From positions 2,850,501-2,914,500 of the forward strand of contig NZ_CP045571.1 of the NCBI RefSeq assembly GCF_009662475.1: a stretch of 64,000 nt of DNA. Reading direction: 5' to 3'. Positions within the stretch are counted from its first letter, which is position 1. Each line of letters begins with the position of its first letter. Positions 2,471-12,427 of the stretch are shown in pieces. Below the pieces are notes generated by a model. That model made no database searches. It was not told where the DNA came from and was given only the letters and a program-made list of their open reading frames with translations. The position numbers and the translations under genes are program-made. This DNA comes from Acidithiobacillus thiooxidans ATCC 19377. GTDB lineage: Bacteria; Pseudomonadota; Gammaproteobacteria; Acidithiobacillales; Acidithiobacillaceae.

Positions 2471-3105
2471 AGCTTGTGTCTCCCAATCAATTGAGAGGAT
2501 TGTACCCCGCTACAGACAATTAACGAAGACAACGCATCTTCTTCGTGAAGGATTCAGGCATCTCGCCGCAACCAGCGATAAACAGTGCGCTCACTGACCC
2601 CGAGGGTTTCCGCCACCCTCCGCCGGTTGCCTTGATACTGACGCAACAAAGCCTCCAGATCATCCGGTTGCGCGCCACCGCGTTGGACTGATGGCGCAGG
2701 TCCAAAATCTCTCACTGCACCCGGCGAAGCCGCATGCGCCGCAAACGCTGGTCTGGCTCCCGTAAAATTCAGATGATTTGCCTGAATAACCGGTCCATCC
2801 GCCAGTGCTGCTGCTTTTTGCAGAATATTGCGCAACTCCCGAACATTTCCCGGAAAATCATAAGTAAACAGGCGCCGTTCTGCATCTTTCGACAGCGTCC
2901 ACTGCCCCCCCCAACTTTTACCAATGCGTTCCAGCAACACCGCCGCAATACCCGCAATATCATCACGACGATCCCGCAAGGGCGGTAAATCAATGGTAAT
3001 AGCCGCGAGACGATAATATAAATCCTCCCGAAATTGTCTTTGCCCGGCCATTTCCAATAAATTACGGTTGGTCGCCGCGATGATACGCACATCGGCATGC
3101 AAGGT

Positions 3106-3114
3106 CTCTGAGCC
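3106..3114. repeat. target-site duplication, left copy
   Basis: CTCTGAGCC lies directly outside the left IS end and is repeated at 4530-4538. A 9-bp duplication fits IS256-family insertion. Confidence 0.93.
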
Positions 3115-3142
3115 GAGCTATAGTCAAATCTGGTGTATGAGC
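3115..3142. repeat. IS terminal inverted repeat, left
   Basis: Starts GAGCTATAGTCAAA and matches the inverted right end (4502-4529) at about 20 of 28 positions. Confidence 0.85.
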
Positions 3143-3157
3143 ATTTTCTGACATAGA

Positions 3158-4420
3158 TCAGGCGGCGGTCTGTTGATCATCCGGCAGGGTGAGGTTAGCC
3201 GGTAAGCCATCGATAAATTTCACCCCTGCAAAAAGCTGCAGGACTTTCTCTGGAGCATAAATCCCAATCCAGCGTTTTTCAGCCTGCTGCAGCATCTTGA
3301 AACCCAATCCCAGAAAGCTGCTGCGTGATACACAGTTCTTCGTCCGGGTAGTCCGGTGGCGTACCGTAGCGAAGGTGGACTCAATGGCATTGGTGGTCCG
3401 GATATGCCGCCAGTGTTCGGCTGGAAAATCATAGAAAGCGAGCAATTCAGCCCGATCTTTTTCCAGTTTAGCCACGGCCTTGGGATACTTTGCCTGGTAA
3501 TTGCGCACAAACACGTCCAGTGCTTTTTCCGCAGCCTGGCGATTGGCGGCCATCCAGATTTCCTGCAACGCTGCCTTGGCTTTGCTCTGTTGGGCTTTGG
3601 GAAGTTCGTTGAGAATGTTGGCGGTCTTATGCACCCAGCAGCGTTGCTGACCAGTTTCGGGATAGGCTTCATCCAGTGCGGCCCAAAACCCCATGGCACC
3701 ATCCCCAATGGCGAGCAAAGGGGCCGCCTCCAGACCGCGCGCCTGCAGGTCACGCAGGATCTCCAGCCAGGAAGCTTTGGATTCGCGCAGGCCGTCACTG
3801 ACACTGACCAGCTCTTTCTTGCCCTCTGCCGTCACGCCGATAATCACCAGCAGGCAGATACGCGGATCCTCCTCCGCACGGAGGTTCGTATAAATACCGT
3901 CTACCCACCAGTAAGCATAGCGCTTTCCCTGTAGGGAGCGGTGTTGCCAATGGGCATACTCTTGCGCCCACTCCGCCTTGAGACGTCCCAACACCGCAGG
4001 TGAAAGTCCCTTGGCCTCATCACCCAGCAAAATGGAAAGGGCTTCCTGCATGTGGCCGGAAGACACCCCATGCAGATAGAGCCAAGGTACTGTAGCGGCT
4101 ACCGTTCGTGATTTGCGTACATACGGAGGCGCCAGTACCGAATTGAATTTGATCCCCGATCCTGAGCGGTCCCGCACCTTGGGTACTTTGACGGGTACCG
4201 GACCCAGAGCGGTCATGATCTCGCGCTCCGGCAGATGCCCATTACGCACGACCGCCTGACGCCCATCAACCATCCGCACTGTCGCAAATTCTTCCAGCAA
4301 TACCGCCACCTCTGCCTCTATGGCCTGCTCAATCAGAGAGCGTGCCGCGCGTCGAAGTATCCCTTCAATGCCCAGACCCAACTCTCCCATCCCACCTGCT
4401 ATTACGGTATTCTTTTCCAC
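3158..4420 (-). CDS. IS256-family (mutator-type) transposase
   Basis: A DDE transposase of about 420 residues, normal for the family. Candidate catalytic residues are the Asp in WVDGIYTNLR, the Asp in AIGDGAMGFW and the Glu in TTNAIEST; a CWVHK motif lies between the last two. The start was taken as the GTG at 4420 because AAGGAG lies just upstream (minus strand); the frame is open further to 4483. No frameshift or stop is seen, so it may be functional. Confidence 0.93.
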   Translation of the reverse strand: MEKNTVIAGGMGELGLGIEGILRRAARSLIEQAIEAEVAVLLEEFATVRMVDGRQAVVRNGHLPEREIMTALGPVPVKVPKVRDRSGSGIKFNSVLAPPYVRKSRTVAATVPWLYLHGVSSGHMQEALSILLGDEAKGLSPAVLGRLKAEWAQEYAHWQHRSLQGKRYAYWWVDGIYTNLRAEEDPRICLLVIIGVTAEGKKELVSVSDGLRESKASWLEILRDLQARGLEAAPLLAIGDGAMGFWAALDEAYPETGQQRCWVHKTANILNELPKAQQSKAKAALQEIWMAANRQAAEKALDVFVRNYQAKYPKAVAKLEKDRAELLAFYDFPAEHWRHIRTTNAIESTFATVRHRTTRTKNCVSRSSFLGLGFKMLQQAEKRWIGIYAPEKVLQLFAGVKFIDGLPANLTLPDDQQTAA

Positions 4421-4501
4421 GGCGTACTCCTTATGTTGCTCTTTGAGTCGGAAACCCTTTGTAGCAACAGTACGCCACCTCATTCAAGCCAGTTGTAACG
4501 C

Positions 4502-4529
4502 GCCCGTACACCACTTTCGAGCATAGCTC
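4502..4529. repeat. IS terminal inverted repeat, right
   Basis: Read on the minus strand it begins GAGCTATGCTCGAAAG; it pairs with the left end at 3115-3142. Confidence 0.85.
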
Positions 4530-4538
4530 CTCTGAGCC
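4530..4538. repeat. target-site duplication, right copy
   Basis: CTCTGAGCC, identical to 3106-3114. Confidence 0.93.
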
Positions 4539-5533
4539 CCCCAAACGCCGGAAAGTCCCGGTTTCCAGAACCCGCAATAATTTAGCCTGCATACTTAAGG
4601 GCAATTCCCCCACCTCATCCAGAAACAGGGTTCCCCGGTCGGCCATTTCATACAGTCCACGCTTACGTCCCAGACAACCTGTGAAAGCCCCTCTTTCATG
4701 ACCCAGGATTTCACTTTCAAAAAGTGTTTCTGGTAGCGAGGTACAATCCACAGTAATAAATGCTTCAGATGCACGTGCAGAAAATTGATGCAGCGCGCTG
4801 GCTGCCAACTCCTTGCCGACCCCACTTTCACCATAAAGCAAAATACTGGCATCCGTACGGCCCGCCATTTCAATGTGATTCAGACATTTCATGAATGCCG
4901 GAGAACGGCCCACCATGCGCATGTCACCACAAGTAATGTCTTCTTCCTGATGCGGCAAGCGAATGATTTCCTCACCAAGATAGGTATTCCCTTCCTGATC
5001 TTTGATGGCATGTCCACGAATACGCACATGTTCAGCATGATTCTGGTGATCATAGTGAATGTGCCGGACATCGTGGGCTTCTCCCGTTGTAAAAACAGCC
5101 TGATGGGGACAATCTTCTCCACGCATATGGCAAGGCACCGGCGAATGGTGGGAAATTTCATGACAGCAACGTCCTATGACCTCGTCGGATTGCACGCCAT
5201 AGGCTTCCTGATAGGCCCGGTTCGCCGCAATGATCCGGTAGTGGTCATCAATCAAAACCATTGGATTCTGCTGAATATTCAAAACACTCTGAACATCCAG
5301 ACCAGTTGCTGACTGATGCTTTTTTGTGGGCTTATGCACATCAGGAGTAGTACGGTCACGATTCTGCATTTCCATAATTTGCCTCGGCGTCTGGTCGGCT
5401 ACTGCTTTTAAGATCTAAAAAATATCCTTTCGTAAATAATACGCATCCTCTTTCTTTTTGGATGCAAGAAAATTTCTATTACCATAACTTAATTATATTT
5501 GTTTATGAACAAGGTGTTCTGCTTGTCAGCACA

Positions 5534-5553
5534 TGTCATGACATGTCATGACA
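5534..5553. promoter_or_regulatory. tandem palindrome pair, candidate activator-binding site (UAS)
   Basis: Two perfect 10-bp palindromes TGTCATGACA abut at 5534-5543 and 5544-5553, one helical turn apart. They lie between the divergent sigma54 activator gene and the dsrE operon. The proximal copy is centred 126 bp upstream of the promoter GG. The variant CGTCATGACA recurs upstream of the DUF3034 gene. This geometry is typical of enhancer sites for sigma54 activators; binding by this particular activator is inferred. Confidence 0.75.
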
Positions 5554-5672
5554 CATTTCATCCGTCGCGATAGATAAATGGGTTAACAATACAGTTAATT
5601 AGTTTATTCTTAATTTTTAATTGTCTAGCGTGATAAGCGAGTTAGCTTCAATCTAATAACGTTCATACAGGC

Positions 5673-5688
5673 TGGCATATTTACTGCT
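5673..5688 (+). promoter_or_regulatory. sigma54-type -24/-12 promoter for dsrE operon
   Basis: TGGCATATTTACTGCT has GG (5674-5675) and GC (5686-5687) exactly 12 bp apart, as sigma54 requires, against the consensus TGGCAC-N5-TTGC. Transcription would start near 5699, about 25 nt before the dsrE ATG. The surrounding 5376-5723 region is AT-rich and holds no other gene. Confidence 0.72.
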
Positions 5689-5723
5689 ATTACTAAACCA
5701 TTCACTTACGATGGGGAGACAAA

Positions 5724-6110
5724 ATGTCAGGCATGTACATCATTTGTTTAAGTGGCGAGCGCGAGAAGTTGCAATTCGCAGCCATGGCGGCGTCCGTAGC
5801 GGCGGTATCCGGAACCGACGTCCATATTTTTCTGTCGATGAACGCCTTCCCCTACTTTGTGAAGGGTCATAGTAAGGAAGCCCCCGCTGAAGGCAAGCTG
5901 GGAGAAGTCATGGCCGAACGTAAAGTGCCCCCCTTCTACCAGATTTTCGAGCAGGCGGTGGAACTGGGCGATGCCAAAATCTGGGCTTGCTCCATGGCTA
6001 TGGATGTTCTCGGCGTCAAAGAGGACGGCATGGAGGAAATCGTAGCCGGGCCTCTGGGCCTGACCAAATTCCTGAGTGACGCCGAAAATGGTCAGATTCT
6101 GACTTTTTAA
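5724..6110 (+). CDS. DsrE-family sulfur-transfer protein
   Basis: A 128-residue cytoplasmic DsrE/DsrF-like protein. Family members accept and pass on persulfide sulfur through a conserved Cys. Here the candidate is Cys89 in [11 protein letters not shown], which resembles the C-x-M-x-M-D pattern of the DsrE2 type; Cys8 is an extra cysteine near the N terminus. GGGGAG precedes the ATG. It is the first gene of the sigma54-type operon and is followed 12 bp later by tusA, its usual partner. The exact DsrE subclass needs a phylogeny. Confidence 0.85.
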
Positions 6111-6122
6111 AAGGAGGAGCAC

Positions 6123-6353
6123 ATGAGTGAACGCGTTGTAGATGCCCGTGGCAGTTTTTGTCCGGGGCCGCTGATGGAACTGATTTCCAACATGAAAATG
6201 ATGCAGGTCGGGGACACCCTGGAATTGTTGTCCACAGATGCCGGTTCTGCTGCGGATGTGCCGGAGTGGATCAAAAAAGTCGGTCACGAAATGGTAGATA
6301 CTGAGCAGGACGGCGAAGGCACCTGGCACATTCGGGTCCGCAAGGCCAAGTAA
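6123..6353 (+). CDS. tusA: TusA-family sulfur-carrier protein
   Basis: A 76-residue protein with the TusA signature SFCPGPLMEL; Cys13 is the residue that carries persulfide sulfur in the family. In sulfur oxidisers, TusA exchanges sulfane sulfur with DsrE and with oxidising enzymes such as Hdr-like complexes or rDsr. AAGGAGGAGC precedes the ATG. Its place between dsrE and an SQR-like gene supports a role in cytoplasmic sulfur trafficking rather than tRNA thiolation. Confidence 0.9.
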   Translation: MSERVVDARGSFCPGPLMELISNMKMMQVGDTLELLSTDAGSAADVPEWIKKVGHEMVDTEQDGEGTWHIRVRKAK

Positions 6354-6398
6354 GCGCACAAACAATCGCAGGCGTAAAACCCTAAGGAGAGTGACATC

Positions 6399-7538
6399 AT
6401 GAGAATTCTGGTCATAGGTGGCGGTATGGGCGGTACTATTTTTGCCAATCATCTGGCACGGCGTATTCACCATGAAATGAAAACCGGCAAGGCACGCATC
6501 ACGATGTTGTCCGCCAGTCATGAGCATGTGTATCAACCCGGCTGGTTGTATGTCGCCATGGGTCGGGCGACGCCCGATGAACTGGTCCGCGAACAGCAAA
6601 GCCTGCTGGAGCCGGGGATTGAATTTCATGTGGATCCGGTTGAAGAATTTCATCTGGCCGAGAACCATGTCAAATGCAAAAGCGGCAAGGTGCATGAGTA
6701 TGACCTCATCGTCATTTCGACCGGTTCGCGTGCCCTGCCCGAGAAAGTTCCCGGTCTCAAGGAAAATTCCATCAACTGCTATACCGCAGAAAATGCCGTC
6801 GAATTCTTCAAGCAACTGTCGGACTTCAAGGGTGGACGCATCGTGGTCACCGTCGGTCTGCCGCACAAGTGCCCGATGATTCCCCTGGAGATCACCTTCG
6901 CCATGCACGACTTCATCAAGGATCGCGGCCTGCTGGACAAGACCGAGTTCTACTACACCTACCCCATTGGCCGGGTGCACAGTCTGGAAAATGTCGCCAA
7001 GTGGGCAGCGCCGGAATTTGACCGGATGGGCATTAAATACGAAACCCTGTTCAACATGAAGGAAGTGGATGGTAAGAATGCCCAGGTACTGAGTGAAGAA
7101 GGCGGAGCAGTGAAATACGATCTGCTGGTAGCCGTGCCGCCCCATAAGGGTCAGGAAGTCATCGAGAAGAACGGTCTGGGTGAAAACGGCTGGATTCCCA
7201 CCAATCGCTCTTCCCTGCACATGGAAGGAGAACATGGCAAGAATGTTCTGGTACTGGGAGATACCACCAATTTGCCCATCAGTAAGGCCGGTTCAACCGC
7301 CCACTTCGAAGCGGAAGTGGCTGCCGAGAATGTGGCGGCGGTCATCAAGATGGGACGGCCGGTGCGCAGTTATGATGGCAAGGTGTTCTGCTTCATTGAG
7401 GCGGGCAAGGACCGGGCAACGTATGCCATGTTCGATTATAAAACCCCACCCCAGCCGAAAGCGCCTACCGGAGCCGTACACGCCTTCAAGATGTCCTATA
7501 ACAAACTCTATTGGGCTACCGCCCGTGGTTTACTCTGA
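6399..7538 (+). CDS. SQR-like FAD-dependent pyridine nucleotide-disulfide oxidoreductase
   Basis: A 379-residue flavoprotein of the sulfide:quinone oxidoreductase / flavocytochrome c family. The N-terminal Rossmann motif is VIGGGMGG (about 5-12) and the second FAD motif is GDTTNLPISKAG (287-298). Cys127, Cys158 (HKCPMIP) and Cys331 lie close to the positions of the three redox cysteines of classical SQR, so sulfide or persulfide chemistry is plausible. There is no export signal. The C terminus (YNKLYWATARGLL) is short, so any membrane contact would be peripheral. AAGGAGAG precedes the ATG. Its partners dsrE, tusA and DUF1641 suggest a sulfur-oxidation complex; whether quinone is the acceptor is unknown. 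Confidence 0.82.
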   Translation: MRILVIGGGMGGTIFANHLARRIHHEMKTGKARITMLSASHEHVYQPGWLYVAMGRATPDELVREQQSLLEPGIEFHVDPVEEFHLAENHVKCKSGKVHEYDLIVISTGSRALPEKVPGLKENSINCYTAENAVEFFKQLSDFKGGRIVVTVGLPHKCPMIPLEITFAMHDFIKDRGLLDKTEFYYTYPIGRVHSLENVAKWAAPEFDRMGIKYETLFNMKEVDGKNAQVLSEEGGAVKYDLLVAVPPHKGQEVIEKNGLGENGWIPTNRSSLHMEGEHGKNVLVLGDTTNLPISKAGSTAHFEAEVAAENVAAVIKMGRPVRSYDGKVFCFIEAGKDRATYAMFDYKTPPQPKAPTGAVHAFKMSYNKLYWATARGLL

Positions 7539-7549
7539 GGAGGTGACGT

Positions 7550-8353
7550 ATGGCTGCGGTCATGGCAGAAACTTCTGAAGATGAACTGCAACGCGCGCAG
7601 GAAGCCCTGGTCCATCTGGTGCAGAACGGGGATCTCGAACGCATTGTGCACCTGGCACGACTGAGTGGTGCGGCAGCAGACTCCATGAGTGATGAGATGG
7701 TGGGTCGTCTGGCGGGGTTGGCCAGCGACGGTCTGGATTTGGTGGATCAGGTCACCCGCAGTCAGGTGGCGCGGGCCCTGCCGGCCATCAGCTCCCTGGT
7801 GGAAAACGGGGATCTGGAGCGCATCGTGCAACTGGCCCGGCTGAGTGGGGCCGCCGCCGATTCCATGAGCGATGAAATGGTGGGTCGCTTGGCCGGTCTG
7901 GCCAGCGATGGCATGGATTTACTGGATCGGGTGAACCGCAGTCAGGTGGTCAATGCTTTACCGGCCATCTCGGCACTGGTCGAAAACGGCGATCTGGAGC
8001 GCATCGTTCATCTGGCCCGCATGGCGGGTGCCGCTGGCGATTCTATGAATGATGAGATGGTCTCACGCCTGGCCACTTTGGCAACCGATGCCATGTGCCT
8101 GCTGGATCGGGCAACGCGCACCGGGGTCATGGACCGTTTGCTCGCTGTCGCTGAGAAAATGGATCAGGATCATATCCTCACCGATTTCCTGCACTGCCTC
8201 AGTGGCGCCACTGAGGAGGCCGCCAGCGCCCCCATTCCCAAGGGAGGAATCGCCGGACTCTGGGACATGATGAAAAAACCGGAAACCCAGCAAACCATCC
8301 AGTTCCTCATGCTGGTCGGCAAACATTTCCGTTCCTGCCGACTCAGGCACTGA
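7550..8353 (+). CDS. DUF1641 protein with three 60-residue internal repeats
   Basis: A 267-residue protein recognised as DUF1641, a family often next to SQR-like or formate-dehydrogenase-like oxidoreductases and of unknown biochemical role. Residues about 26-205 consist of three near-identical 60-residue units beginning NGDLERIVxLAR, each containing SMxDEMVxRLA. Family members usually hold one or two such units, so this is an expanded form. There is no signal peptide; the C terminus (GLWDMMKKPETQQTIQFLM) is amphipathic. GAGGAGGTG precedes the ATG, 11 bp after the SQR-like gene. It is the last gene before a strong terminator. Confidence 0.8.
   Translation: MAAVMAETSEDELQRAQEALVHLVQNGDLERIVHLARLSGAAADSMSDEMVGRLAGLASDGLDLVDQVTRSQVARALPAISSLVENGDLERIVQLARLSGAAADSMSDEMVGRLAGLASDGMDLLDRVNRSQVVNALPAISALVENGDLERIVHLARMAGAAGDSMNDEMVSRLATLATDAMCLLDRATRTGVMDRLLAVAEKMDQDHILTDFLHCLSGATEEAASAPIPKGGIAGLWDMMKKPETQQTIQFLMLVGKHFRSCRLRH
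7625..8164. repeat. three tandem 180-bp coding repeats inside DUF1641 gene
   Basis: Units start at 7625, 7805 and 7985 (AACGGGGATCT or AACGGCGATCT), an exact 180-bp period. Units 1 and 2 are the most alike; unit 3 has diverged more. Confidence 0.92.
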
Positions 8354-8403
8354 TCATGAACTAACTTTTACCGTTTTAACGTGTTCTACTCGCCCCGCTT
8401 GCA

Positions 8404-8428
8404 GCCCCTGTTGTTCAGGGGCTTTTTT
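8404..8428 (+). terminator. rho-independent terminator of dsrE operon
   Basis: GCCCCTG-TTGTT-CAGGGGC (8404-8422) followed by six T. It separates the operon from the convergent HiPIP gene. Confidence 0.92.
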
Positions 8429-8437
8429 ATTTAAGCG

Positions 8438-8737
8438 TTAGCTAGAAATAGGTGTATAGGCAAAGCAATATCCATGTGGGCTGATTTTGCCCGCAACCAC
8501 TTTACAGGTGCCATCCGCACTGGGAGAGGCTCCCGGTACAAAATGCGCGCAATTACTGCACATGTCCTTGCCACTGGGATGATCCTGATAACTGACAGAA
8601 CTTTTGCTTTGCAACCCACCTGCAGTACCAGCCTCAGCCATGGATGAAAACACCAAAGGAGCCACTGCGGCCGCTGCGGCCGCTGCGGCTATTTTACCTG
8701 TTGATTTCAACCATTCACGACGATTCATAGATTTCAT
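8438..8737 (-). CDS. high-potential iron-sulfur protein (HiPIP, Iro-like)
   Basis: A small periplasmic [4Fe-4S] electron carrier of 99 residues. It begins with a twin-arginine signal (NRREWLKSTGK followed by an Ala-rich hydrophobic segment, cleavage probably after AEA near residue 37). The mature part has four cysteines, Cys60, Cys63, Cys78 and Cys91, in HiPIP spacing. The ATG at 8737 was chosen because GGGAG precedes it and it puts the RR motif near the N terminus; the open frame runs further upstream but has no signal there. HiPIPs shuttle electrons between the bc1 complex or sulfur/iron oxidases and terminal oxidases. It lies 124 bp downstream of the YiiX-like gene and may have its own promoter. 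Confidence 0.9.
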   Translation of the reverse strand: MKSMNRREWLKSTGKIAAAAAAAAVAPLVFSSMAEAGTAGGLQSKSSVSYQDHPSGKDMCSNCAHFVPGASPSADGTCKVVAGKISPHGYCFAYTPISS

Positions 8738-8861
8738 AGTATATTCTCCCAAATGATGAATGAGGCGCCTATAAAGGGCCCACTTAGTTCTACGTAATCT
8801 GCGCCGGAATGGATGCAGGCAACAGAAAATTGATCCCCAGCATATATTCATAATTGGACAA

Positions 8862-9377
8862 TCAACTGCGTAGAGTAAAAACATTATTGAATACCGGCTT
8901 CATTCCGATCAAATCTCCCGGAAATACCACCTTCCGCAGCCCTACCAAGGGTATGGATAAAGTACTTAACTCCGCTGAGATCAGGTTGATCTGTATTTGC
9001 AAAAATGCCTTATAAACAAACTCGGAACAATATAATGCCCGATCATCCTGCAAGTCATAATTATCATCAAAAGGAATACGCAACTTCACCTGTTTATGAC
9101 ACCAGTGAAACAAATTTTCACACTGTGGTTCTACCAAGCTAATCGGTATGTAGCCCACTTTTACAGCACGTTCCGGCGCACAAAAATCGTCCAGGCTACC
9201 CATATGCACCCCACCTCGGGTGCGTTCCGTAGACGGTATGCTTTCAAATAAAGCACCACCTACCAAAACCCCGACATGCGTCCAGGGCCCGCGATTTTTG
9301 AGGCGTACCAGGCGTGCCTCCACCCCCAGCCCTTCGCGCAGCAGTAGATATGCCGTCAGTCCACACTCACGAACCAT
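8862..9377 (-). CDS. YiiX/YebB-like permuted NlpC/P60 hydrolase
   Basis: A 171-residue papain-like amidase of the permuted NlpC/P60 type. The expected triad can be seen: His34 in WTHVGVLVG, Glu45 in LFESIP and Cys117 in LYCSEFVYKAF. Family members cleave amide or ester bonds in cell-wall or lipid-linked substrates. The start overlaps the end of the upstream lipoprotein gene by 22 bp, which implies translational coupling. No clear signal peptide is visible with this start, so its location is uncertain. Confidence 0.7.
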   Translation of the reverse strand: MVRECGLTAYLLLREGLGVEARLVRLKNRGPWTHVGVLVGGALFESIPSTERTRGGVHMGSLDDFCAPERAVKVGYIPISLVEPQCENLFHWCHKQVKLRIPFDDNYDLQDDRALYCSEFVYKAFLQIQINLISAELSTLSIPLVGLRKVVFPGDLIGMKPVFNNVFTLRS

Positions 9378-9781
9378 TTCCCGTCCCTGCGTACCAGTTG
9401 CAACGTCGTATTCCGTGGGCTACCTTTCTCAGGAATCAGGCTGATAATCACCGTGGCATGTTCAACGCCATGTATCATGGTCCGTTGGTTTTTGACTATT
9501 TTGGCCTCCTTCAAACCGCCTTCAGCTTGCAGACGCTGATAAGTAGCCATCACATATCCATTCACTTTCGCTTCTTCGAGCCGCATTGCATAGGGTTGTG
9601 CAGGATTTTGCACTTCAGGTCCCCAATAAACCAGTTTGTCTACTTTCTGGATGTCCCCTTTCGCCATACCATGCACAAAATGCATAGCCGTATTCTCTGG
9701 ACCTGAACTCGAAAAAAGTCCACAAGCTGAGATTCCCACTGTTAATCCAGCCACTGTGAGTGTTTTTAGAATACTTCGCAC
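9356..9781 (-). CDS. small lipoprotein, DUF4878-like
   Basis: A 141-residue protein with a lipoprotein signal: a short hydrophobic segment ending in the lipobox ISAC, with lipidated Cys20. The mature part (HFVHGMAKGDIQKVDKLV ... RRDGKWFVSVD) resembles DUF4878/NTF2-like lipoproteins, in which a short alpha-beta cone fold ends in a GKWxV strand. No catalytic motif is visible. It sits in a run of exported genes on the minus strand. Confidence 0.6.
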   Translation of the reverse strand: MRSILKTLTVAGLTVGISACGLFSSSGPENTAMHFVHGMAKGDIQKVDKLVYWGPEVQNPAQPYAMRLEEAKVNGYVMATYQRLQAEGGLKEAKIVKNQRTMIHGVEHATVIISLIPEKGSPRNTTLQLVRRDGKWFVSVD

Positions 9782-9883
9782 ACAAATTCTCCTTGATTAA
9801 AGCGATCCAAAGAAAAACAGGCAATACCATAAGCAGCATCGCCTGTTAATCATGACGTCTTGACTAGTGATTCATCAAGCCAG

Positions 9884-10420
9884 TTATTGCACAGTTTTAC
9901 GTACCTTAATACTGGAATTGATTTCCACGCGCTGATTCAGGAAACGTCCCCGTGGCGTCGCATTGCTGGCGACGGGATCCAGATAGGAATGCCCCTTCGT
10001 CATAATCCGTGAAGCAGCTATACCATGCGCTTCCAGATAACCGGCAACGCTTTGTGCACGTTGCTCAGAGAGTTTTTGATTGTAAGCAAAACTACCTGTT
10101 TTACTGCAGTAACCATTCACATCCAGAACAGCGGCTGAATGTTTATGGGCAAAATCGGCCACCTGATCCAGCACGGCAATATCATGGCTGATCAGTTTGG
10201 AAGAATTGGTCTGGAAATTAATCCCGGTAATGGTAATTGGTTTACTCTCCAGAACCGTATGCTGCACCGGTGCAATAGGTGCCACAGGTGCGGGTTTTGC
10301 GGCTGGAGCCGCCGGTGCGGCCGGGGGAATCCCGGGAGAACAGGCAAAAGGATTAGTACCACAGCCAGCAGCGGCCAAGACCACTGCCACAGCCAGTGTT
10401 TGCTTGTATATTTTTTTCAT
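9884..10420 (-). CDS. OmpA-like peptidoglycan-associated lipoprotein
   Basis: A 178-residue protein starting at ATG 10420 (AAGGAGA upstream). It has a lipoprotein signal with lipobox AAGC at Cys20, a Pro/Ala-rich linker (about 32-55), then an OmpA C-terminal domain. The domain shows INFQTNSSKL, the NGYCSKTGS turn and LSEQRAQSVAGYL, and ends near RVEI, the usual peptidoglycan-binding fold. It probably anchors the outer membrane, or a neighbouring barrel, to the wall. The weak hairpin upstream may reduce read-through from the haemoglobin gene. Confidence 0.85.
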   Translation of the reverse strand: MKKIYKQTLAVAVVLAAAGCGTNPFACSPGIPPAAPAAPAAKPAPVAPIAPVQHTVLESKPITITGINFQTNSSKLISHDIAVLDQVADFAHKHSAAVLDVNGYCSKTGSFAYNQKLSEQRAQSVAGYLEAHGIAASRIMTKGHSYLDPVASNATPRGRFLNQRVEINSSIKVRKTVQ

Positions 10421-10489
10421 ATTACGTCTCCTTAGTAGCTGATTTTTTGGGTAGATGCATTCACTTTCTACAATTTTAATCAACAAATT

Positions 10490-10523
10490 CAATGACAAAA
10501 TAGGCCCCATCCAGGATGGAGCC
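10490..10523 (-). terminator. weak terminator or processing hairpin
   Basis: On the minus strand GGCTCCAT pairs with ATGGGGCC (10503-10523), followed by TATTTTGTCATT. The T-tract is poor, so this may only attenuate transcription between the haemoglobin and OmpA-like genes. Confidence 0.4.
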
Positions 10524-10587
10524 TGAAGTTCCCGATTTTGCTAGCGGGAGGAGGAGACTGCATACAACATTTACTTGATGTCCCTTT

Positions 10588-11064
10588 TCAGCCCAAGGGG
10601 CCGTTAGCGGTGACGATTTGTGGTTCCATGGAAGCCAGAATAGCAATCAGGTAATTCTGCGCCGACATGGGAATCCTTTGGGTTTGCATCGCATCCATCA
10701 TGTCCTGGGCCAGATAGTTGAAGGCTGCCGTAGTAACACCCATCCCTTCATGGGCTTTACGCATACTCAGGCCGGTGTATTTGCAGGGACCGCCCACCGC
10801 CATACACACCTGCTGCACCAATTCGTACTTCAGGTGGGGGATATTGGTATGTGCGAAGTAGTAGTTGATGTGCGGGTCATTAGCAACATTACCCACAAAC
10901 GTATTAATCAGCTTGGTAATGCCCGCCTTACCGCCGTACTGGGCATAGTAATCCTGAGCGGATGCGGTCGAAATTCCCATCATGGCAACAGCCGTATACC
11001 CTGCCGCCAAAGCGACACCCTTGGCTACTGCCGAAAGACGGGAAGAGGTTGGTATAAATGACAT
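10588..11064 (-). CDS. exported group 1 truncated haemoglobin
   Basis: A 158-residue protein. Residues 1-36 form a signal peptide (hydrophobic run AKGVALAAGYTAVAMM, cleavage near ASA). The rest is a 2-on-2 globin: YAQYGGKAGITKLINTFV, YYFAHTN with the CD1 Phe at about 70, and MRKAHEGMGV with proximal His105. Truncated haemoglobins bind O2 or NO; most are cytoplasmic, so export is unusual. AGAGGAG precedes the ATG and the gene starts 22 bp after the DUF3034 gene, so they are co-transcribed. A role in NO/O2 handling or electron transfer in the periplasm is inference. Confidence 0.85.
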   Translation of the reverse strand: MSFIPTSSRLSAVAKGVALAAGYTAVAMMGISTASAQDYYAQYGGKAGITKLINTFVGNVANDPHINYYFAHTNIPHLKYELVQQVCMAVGGPCKYTGLSMRKAHEGMGVTTAAFNYLAQDMMDAMQTQRIPMSAQNYLIAILASMEPQIVTANGPLG

Positions 11065-11086
11065 GGTAAACTCCTCTTAAATTAGG

Positions 11087-12205
11087 TCAAAAGCTGCTGG
11101 TCAGAGATAAATACAGACCGTTTTGGTTCTTTTCTGTGGCAATAGTACCCAAATCCACATAGGCTGCTGTCAGTGAAAGCTGCTTGTAGGGGAACCAAGC
11201 GACATAAACGTCTTTCCAGGCACTCGTTTTGGATACCGCATCACCGACAGCACCCAAATGTAGAGGAATACCTCCTCCCGGCGTAACAACTGTACCAGAA
11301 GCTGCTATGAGTTGATTTTGTGGCATATCTCGATACTCAGCACCCAAGACCACATGGCGGTTCAGAAAAACACCCACCGAAGCAGCCGTCAATACTTTGT
11401 AACCCATACCATTGACGCCACCGAAACCCAGCAAGCCTTGCTGATTGGCGTTGGTAACATCAATATTTACATCCGCTAAAGTCGTCAACCCGAATATACC
11501 GTTAATCCAGACTTTAGTAGCCGATAGATAATAGCTGACGCCATTACGCTTAACACCCAGTGTCGCTGCAAAATCTTTGGGCATCTCATTGTGGTGGAAA
11601 TCGACACCCACGGATACCTGTGGTTCCCACCAGTTTTGATCGTAAATAACATTCCCGAAGAGACGCACCTTCAGACCTACGATATCCTGATTTAAATCGT
11701 AATTGCTACCAAAAAATGCGGGACCCCCGGCAAATGCTTTATCGGCAGTCAAACCCGCTGTGGTCGTCGTTCCGTACGGGAAGGATACACCTGGTGTTGT
11801 TACTGCTGTGCCAAGAATCTTATTATCAAGTACCTGCCCTGTATTACCTAAACTAAACCCCTGCCGGGCAAAAGAGATCTCAACCCGGTTGAATAATCCG
11901 ACCGATGCGCCGTAAGCGTTCAAGTTATAGTTGTTCAGCAATACATGTGAATAAAAAGCGGTCGCGCCAATTTGCTGATTGGTGCCATAACCCGAAATCA
12001 CTGCCCAGGGGTTGATACCACCACCAGCAGCACCGTCTATCGCTGTTACTGCTCCGGTGCCCAAAATACGGCCCTGGCCAAATAAACAGGCCGAACCTAT
12101 CGCCGCATTGGCGGCCACAGGGACCATTGCACCCAACGTGCAGGCCACTGCCAGAATGACTGCTTTTGTAGCGGGTGATTTCGCAGACTTACCCATAATT
12201 TTCAT
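11087..12205 (-). CDS. DUF3034 outer-membrane beta-barrel protein
   Basis: A 372-residue protein with a signal peptide (about 1-34, ending ANA), a barrel-like pattern of alternating aromatic and polar strands, and a terminal Phe (SLTSSF), as recognised by the Bam machinery. The N-terminal EGAAGGGxxPW-like segment (DGAAGGGINPWAVISGYGT) matches my memory of DUF3034, a family of unknown cargo in beta- and gammaproteobacteria. AGGAGGAGG precedes the ATG. It is the first gene behind the sigma54-type promoter at 12262-12277. Confidence 0.78.
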   Translation of the reverse strand: MKIMGKSAKSPATKAVILAVACTLGAMVPVAANAAIGSACLFGQGRILGTGAVTAIDGAAGGGINPWAVISGYGTNQQIGATAFYSHVLLNNYNLNAYGASVGLFNRVEISFARQGFSLGNTGQVLDNKILGTAVTTPGVSFPYGTTTTAGLTADKAFAGGPAFFGSNYDLNQDIVGLKVRLFGNVIYDQNWWEPQVSVGVDFHHNEMPKDFAATLGVKRNGVSYYLSATKVWINGIFGLTTLADVNIDVTNANQQGLLGFGGVNGMGYKVLTAASVGVFLNRHVVLGAEYRDMPQNQLIAASGTVVTPGGGIPLHLGAVGDAVSKTSAWKDVYVAWFPYKQLSLTAAYVDLGTIATEKNQNGLYLSLTSSF

Positions 12206-12261
12206 ACCTCCTCCTAGCCGTTAAGCGGTTCTTGAATGCCAGAGCACTCAAAAAACTTAAG

Positions 12262-12277
12262 AGCAAGAAAGGGGCCA
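12262..12277 (-). promoter_or_regulatory. sigma54-type -24/-12 promoter for DUF3034-haemoglobin cluster
   Basis: Read on the minus strand, TGGCCCCTTTCTTGCT has GG and GC exactly 12 bp apart and a perfect TTGCT -12 box. Transcription would start near 12250, about 45 nt before the DUF3034 ATG. Confidence 0.78.
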
Positions 12278-12395
12278 AAATCTCAGAAACCTCTACAACA
12301 CACAAGAATTATTTGTAACAACTTGTTTATTATGAACAAGCATCAACACATCATACAAATAGAACTGTTTGTATTTCTTCTGATTCTGCATGACA

Positions 12396-12427
12396 CGTCA
12401 TGACATCTCTACAGTTTCGTCATGACA
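12396..12427. promoter_or_regulatory. palindrome pair, candidate activator-binding sites (UAS)
   Basis: CGTCATGACA occurs at 12396-12405 and 12418-12427, centres 22 bp (two helical turns) apart. The copy nearer the promoter is centred 125 bp upstream of its GG, the same distance as at the dsrE operon. Confidence 0.75.

Follow-up and report, generated by a model that had tools for sequence, protein, structure and literature searches.

Among the closest known systems to the one analysed here are the FisR regulons of Cupriavidus pinatubonensis and Acinetobacter baumannii, in which, according to the available portions of the source papers, a sigma54 activator made up of an N-terminal sensor, an AAA+ domain and a Fis-type helix-turn-helix (HTH) is encoded divergently from sulfide-oxidation genes (PMC9774590, PMC12170894, PMC7315123), and FisR relies on three conserved cysteines to detect reactive sulfur (PMC9774590, PMC12170894). 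A locus of this general kind lies in the stretch of DNA that was analysed (the window), 64 kb of the one-contig, 3.42-Mb genome of Acidithiobacillus thiooxidans ATCC 19377 (G000). It holds two convergent operons, one beginning with dsrE and the other with a gene for a DUF3034 protein followed by one for an exported globin, each preceded by paired palindromes of the form YGTCATGACA and by a sigma54-type promoter, and, beside dsrE, the gene for a FisR-type activator (Table 1). From the sequence comparisons below we consider it quite probable that the palindromes are the enhancer of this activator, which would be triggered by persulfide or polysulfide and would drive both operons.

The initial annotation had placed two palindromes upstream of each operon, at 5534-5553 and 12396-12427, and there they stand; its figure of 125-126 bp between the centre of the nearer palindrome and the GG of the promoter is off by no more than about 1 bp (124.5 bp for dsrE and 123.5 bp for DUF3034, counted to the T of TGG). 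YGTCATGACA makes six strand-matches in the window, at four places, against a shuffle mean of 0.26, and none of 100 shuffles reached six. A single palindrome is nevertheless not specific; it is the spaced pair that is. The own genome has YGTCATGACA at 11 places (eight forward and eight reverse strand-matches, vs. two and five for the backwards control), and the seven outside the window are all single, six of them within called reading frames and one intergenic. Three of those six are one repeated gene start, with TGTCATGACA at the start codon of three near-identical genes in recurring repeated segments (L142, L144 and L145; genome positions 1378498, 2377052 and 2571952), the product being hemerythrin-like by eye. 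The pair pattern GTCATGAC-N2..32-GTCATGAC, by contrast, is found at only three own-genome loci, namely both window promoters and 3254525-3254552, the last being flanked by a further dsrE on one side and a further DUF3034 gene on the other. Across 40 genomes (own included) the pair pattern gave 29 forward matches in 14 genomes and its reversed control none, a difference which, like the shuffles, upholds the original view that the match is beyond chance. By position, 26 of the 29 matches fall at dsrE or DUF3034 or next to a copy of the activator, the remaining three being in G011 (650498 and 2348631) and G007 (contig C82). A composite pattern of palindrome plus box is weaker than the pair, because only 18 of its 46 matches (in 27 of the 40 genomes; control 4) are placed at these promoters by coordinates, the others being unexamined; its third own-genome match (1985724) lies inside a 348-aa reading frame and was set aside.

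Both promoters have the -24 GG and -12 GC of a sigma54 promoter at the standard spacing, and both are conserved, with CGGCA replacing TGGCA in the dsrE box of G023 as the exception. Since 38 sigma54-like boxes scoring at least 9 of 12 occur on the two strands of the window, a box alone is weak evidence, and the weight is carried by position and conservation. The 14 aligned dsrE upstream regions (G022, G023, the contig-cut G003 and duplicates were left out) and the six aligned DUF3034 promoters of the genus keep their boxes as given in Table 1, and in the latter the palindromes and the degenerate third copy are likewise invariant islands. The stretch between enhancer and box holds only one-mismatch matches to IHF-like sites. 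Measured from the nearest palindrome centre (at most one mismatch) to TGG, the enhancer-box distance stays within 122.5-125.5 bp at all but one of the 15 primary promoters measured in the genus (8 of 9 for dsrE and 6 of 6 for DUF3034; the dsrE promoter of G014, at 132.5 bp, is the exception). The matched distance does not extend to the rest of the family (88.5-144.5 bp), to four duplicated-locus promoters (127.5, 128.5, 183.5 and 254.5 bp) or to five Thiobacillus/Hydrogenophilales loci, where palindromes lie 65-98 bp from sigma54 boxes before SQR-like genes, and a strict 124-bp distance was rejected as not general. Helical phasing, which the 10 and 22 bp of the window promoters had suggested, is a tendency only, because palindrome spacings of 14, 15, 18 and 25 bp also occur; strict phasing was rejected in the same way. 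Of the family's 15 close copies of DUF3034, 12 are preceded by palindromes (two distant copies, in G002 and G013, 39%, are outside these counts), and in G022 the palindromes lie in the intergenic region from which dsrE and DUF3034 diverge, flanked by a box to either side. Taken together, the genome comparison bears out the single predicted sigma54 regulon of the initial annotation, and shared control of the dsrE operon and the DUF3034-globin cluster is a well supported prediction.

The sensor type, absent from the initial annotation, is FisR-like. Pfam searches of both activator fragments give PAS-AAA+-Fis with no receiver domain; the gene is divergent from dsrE-tusA-SQR-like, and its homologues are divergent from SQR-like genes in Thiobacillus/Hydrogenophilus. 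Orthologues of at least 59% identity number 20 copies in 19 of the 40 genomes, the window copy being the sole split one and the intact ones having 445-489 aa (chosen starts). The C-x10-C-x6-C triad is present in all 19 intact copies and also in both paralogues examined. A Cupriavidus metallidurans CH34 homologue, 40% identical, has the triad at residues 53/64/71, which we take to be the positions of the cysteines in C. pinatubonensis FisR as well, and the gene beside it reads by eye as a persulfide dioxygenase. Among the 32 activator relatives examined, from 80 loci returned by alignment, palindromes lie upstream of 6 of the 10 with the triad and of none of the 22 without it (one of the 22 has a bare core). 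The linked FisR-type activator is most likely what reads the palindromes.

A wider, unselected scan covered 369 genomes of the class. The pair occurs in 19 of them, vs. 11 for the reversed control, and therefore part of the outside-family pair count is background. Of 17 outside-family pair loci (one per genome), five lie next to a FisR-like gene whose product keeps the triad in every case, and two more adjoin an SQR-like gene. Paired TGTCATGACA sites would then, if the prediction is right, mark candidate FisR-type targets in other Gammaproteobacteria.

Besides that background, several observations count against the proposed regulon. In this strain an IS256-type element, inserted in the AAA+ domain, splits the activator gene; the element, which matches another genomic copy at 99.6% identity over 1419 bp (near-identical copies lie in L139 and L141), is flanked by a 9-bp target duplication, CTCTGAGCC, at 3106-3114 and 4530-4538 (read by eye). 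Because of this split both operons are probably not inducible in this strain, unless the paralogue discussed below reads the same site. Four of the 10 triad-bearing relatives have no palindrome, and none of the TGTCATGACA type was found at the FisR-like loci of C. metallidurans (L263) or Pseudoalteromonas (L264). Three close DUF3034-globin-hipip copies, those of the order hipip-globin-DUF3034, have no site either, and some dsrE operons occur without activator or site. The FisR of A. baumannii, as described in the available part of the source, is without those cysteines and yet mediates the sulfide response (PMC7315123). In favour of the regulon, no palindrome was present in the visible upstream DNA of any of seven activator-unlinked copies of the dsrE operon outside DUF3034-sharing loci (G005 twice, G012, G013, the second copy in each of G011 and G014, and contig C3 of G025), two G003 copies cut at a contig end being uninformative; unlinked copies that share their intergenic region with DUF3034 (L137, L150) do carry them. 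G005, a genome without the activator, has a different sigma54-activator-like gene just upstream of tusA (contig C24; L318, 1220-2196), and its dsrE operon may for this reason have swapped regulator.

Table 1. Sites and genes of the predicted regulon, in window coordinates
Feature	Position	Strand	Basis or remark
Tandem enhancer palindromes TGTCATGACA x2	5534-5543 + 5544-5553	.	centres 10 bp apart; upstream of dsrE
Enhancer palindromes CGTCATGACA x2	12396-12405 + 12418-12427	.	centres 22 bp apart; upstream of DUF3034-globin
Degenerate third palindrome copy, DUF3034 side	12386-12395
Sigma54 -24/-12 box TGGCATATTTACTGCT, dsrE operon	5673-5688	+	TGGCA and CTGCT invariant in 14 aligned upstream regions
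Sigma54 box TGGCCCCTTTCTTGCT, DUF3034 operon	12262-12277	-	all but one base kept in 6 aligned genus promoters
FisR-type activator, 5' part: PAS with C-x10-C-x6-C triad and first part of AAA+ sigma54-interaction domain	4530..5375	-	Pfam PAS_4, Sigma54_activat over cut-off; intact orthologues in relatives
Activator, 3' part: AAA+ end, lid, Fis-type HTH	2554..3114	-	Pfam AAA_lid_14, HTH_8 over cut-off
IS256-type element splitting activator	3115..4529	-	Mutator-family transposase reading frame 3158-4483; Transposase_mut over cut-off
dsrE, DsrE-family sulfurtransferase-like	5724..6110	+	Pfam DrsE_2, DsrE over cut-off
tusA	6123..6353	+	Pfam TusA over cut-off
SQR-like flavoprotein	6399..7538	+	Pfam Pyr_redox_2; solved SQRs E 9e-31
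267-aa protein, no Pfam family	7550..8353	+	0 families (Pfam, NCBIfam); self-similar stretches
DUF3034 protein, probable outer-membrane barrel	11087..12205	-	Pfam DUF3034
Exported truncated globin, group 1 (HbN-like)	10588..11064	-	Pfam Bac_globin over cut-off; N-terminal signal by eye
OmpA-family lipoprotein-like protein	9884..10420	-	Pfam OmpA over cut-off; lipobox by eye
Lipoprotein-like protein	9356..9781	-	no Pfam family; lipobox by eye
Peptidase_C92 (YaeF/YiiX-type) protein	8862..9377	-	Pfam over cut-off
HiPIP-like protein, Tat-like signal, last cluster gene	8438..8737	-	solved HiPIPs E 1.9e-11

The dsrE operon runs rightward from 5724 as dsrE, tusA, the SQR-like gene and the gene for the 267-aa protein. 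Within the last of these, units of about 60 residues are repeated in tandem, and we refer to the protein, on assumption, as DUF1641-like. The flavoprotein is labelled SQR-like only, as it scores 294.8 of the 525 bits set for its nearest NCBIfam model, that of type III SQR (NF049943, a selenoprotein-subtype model); the accessible part of a paper on Acidithiobacillus ferrooxidans gives that species two SQRs, AFE_0267 and AFE_1792 (PMC12016491). The envelope cluster runs leftward from 12205, in the order DUF3034, globin, OmpA-type lipoprotein, lipoprotein, C92 and HiPIP-like. An aromatic, beta-signal-like C-terminal end is seen in most of the 22 DUF3034 copies listed, and single-sequence structure prediction of the DUF3034 protein gave a mean pLDDT of 28 and no usable fold. 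The globin scores 43.4 bits against a Pfam cut-off of 21, and its best solved matches are HbN (E 3.8e-14) and other group 1 globins. The last protein is called HiPIP-like and no more, its scores (20.5 of 22 bits for Pfam HIPIP and 73.3 of 100 bits for Iro) lying below the curated cut-offs. At four of eight globin-only loci (L152, L159, L163 and L164) the globin has a one-mismatch palindrome some 270 bp ahead of it, with no sigma54 box passing the filter.

By analogy with FisR, persulfide from sulfide or sulfur oxidation (or polysulfide) would modify the three PAS cysteines of the activator which, bound at the paired palindromes, would hydrolyse ATP and open sigma54-RNA polymerase at both promoters. 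The SQR-like protein, TusA and DsrE would handle sulfide and persulfide in the cytoplasm, and the second promoter would drive the DUF3034 barrel, the exported group 1 globin, the lipoproteins, C92 and the HiPIP-like protein, coupling the cytoplasmic and envelope parts functionally. The envelope set may, as a guess, deal with sulfide, oxygen or nitric oxide (NO) in the periplasm, the HiPIP-like protein acting as carrier; its most likely role would be to protect the periplasm during sulfide oxidation. More tentatively, and at odds we would ourselves call rather long, the persulfide sensor might install an envelope redox chain of DUF3034 barrel, globin and HiPIP-like protein that works in concert with cytoplasmic SQR-DsrE-TusA, catching sulfide, oxygen or NO on the outer side of the cytoplasmic membrane and handing on electrons; such a chain would amount to an extracytoplasmic haemoglobin system induced by sulfide.

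NO chemistry is a serious alternative for the envelope set, because the closest solved relatives of the globin are HbN-type group 1 globins, and HbN is an NO dioxygenase. The set would then answer NO or low oxygen and not sulfide, its shared control being signal cross-talk. The distribution of DUF3034 outside the family bears on both sides of the question. PF11231 (DUF3034) occurs in 18 of the 369 class genomes, 16 of them outside the family, where it has two PARTNERSHIPS: beside a globin (10 of 16) or near a FisR-like gene (4 of 16), never both (a further one has neither neighbour, and the last is interrupted by a contig end). The globins of the ten have a signal- or lipoprotein-like start by eye, and all three scanned neighbours at such loci are dCache-GGDEF-EAL proteins. 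The four (G025, G181, G283 and G291, from three other families) have, at 75-79 bp from a sigma54 box, either a palindrome or the core of one. DUF3034 itself adjoins FisR-like and SQR-like genes in other families, the activator has the FisR-type triad, and its homologues have SQR-like, PDO-like (by eye) and cytochrome bd genes as neighbours, all of which speak for sulfide, and we judge the answer to NO or low oxygen unlikely, though worth keeping in view. In Acidithiobacillaceae the DUF3034-globin and DUF3034-FisR sets are merged. The DUF3034-exported globin neighbours in the ten outside-family genomes (L286-L296) suggest a wider envelope module, and one of these genomes, G381 (L296), has a HiPIP-like gene as well.

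A second alternative is that the palindromes bind another regulator, either the FisR paralogue or an unrelated dimeric factor, the link to the activator beside dsrE being incidental. The paralogue (1209845-1211209), at 46% the next relative in the own genome, has neighbours that read by eye as a metallo-beta-lactamase-fold protein (dioxygenase-like) and cytochrome bd (cydAB). Its locus (L146, 6107-11209; about 1206107-1211209 of the genome) holds TGTCAAAAATGACA in the intergenic region. It has the same cysteine spacing and is intact here, whereas the linked activator is split, and FisR relatives near cytochrome bd have the palindrome once (L055) or not at all (L264). However, pairs track the linked orthologue, which is present in 12 of the 14 genomes with pairs; G005, G012 and G013, which have the paralogue only, lack pairs altogether and have a dsrE operon without a palindrome; and distant homologues have palindromes directly upstream. 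Recognition by some other regulator is accordingly improbable, and we continue to favour the linked FisR-type activator.

Three loci show dsrE and DUF3034 divergent over a common palindrome cluster that has a box to either side, G022 being joined by contig C34 of G004 (L150) and by the own-genome duplicate (L137, 4491-17436; 3244491-3257436 of the genome), where a second dsrE operon faces away from a second DUF3034-globin pair; the L137 region also holds a third cluster, hipip-globin-DUF3034, without palindromes. From 9 bp ahead of the dsrE start, the two dsrE operon copies share 99.56% identity along 2714 bp. BLAST finds no similarity in the DNA upstream of that point, although the duplicate has there a box and three palindrome cores spaced 10 bp apart. 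That the two promoters resemble each other merely by inheritance from one ancestral promoter or by local duplication, without present function, would fit operons that are neighbours and in some genomes divergent over one site cluster, and is very improbable in the face of sites and boxes that form conserved islands in diverged DNA, of a duplicate that keeps its sites in dissimilar DNA, and of copies away from the system that have none.

Among regulators already described in Acidithiobacillus, TspS/TspR and RsrS/RsrR also govern sulfur metabolism, and TspR is sigma54-dependent; in the available part of the review that describes them they are two-component systems for sox and tetH, whereas the activator here has no receiver domain, and the TspR site, TGTCCCAAATGGGACA, differs from the palindrome (PMC6335251). 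The name FisR has no occurrences in the accessible text of that 2019 review, nor in that of a 2025 survey of sigma factors in Acidithiobacillia (PMC12194929). The truncated-haemoglobin cytochromes of cable bacteria likewise place an extracytoplasmic truncated globin in a sulfide oxidiser, though there, in the part of the source available, the periplasmic globin is fused to a multihaem cytochrome and proposed to be an oxygen reductase (PMC11976967), while here it is a separate small protein encoded beside DUF3034. Loci of other Gammaproteobacteria that combine DUF3034 and globin genes with GGDEF-EAL sensors share the adjoining exported globin gene and differ in that the stretches fetched held no FisR-like gene. 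Should the prediction hold, the Acidithiobacillaceae would gain a persulfide-sensing regulon with a defined enhancer, and DUF3034 outer-membrane proteins and exported globins would be tied to sulfide stress. The FisR regulon has a sensor with three sensing cysteines in Cupriavidus, matched by the cysteine triad of the activator here; its known targets, in the available portions of those papers, are pdo, sqr and their neighbours, with no DsrE-TusA, DUF3034, globin or HiPIP among them (PMC9774590, PMC12170894, PMC7315123). The regulator is filed as FisR-type, with a predicted signal, and what is new is the predicted content of its regulon.

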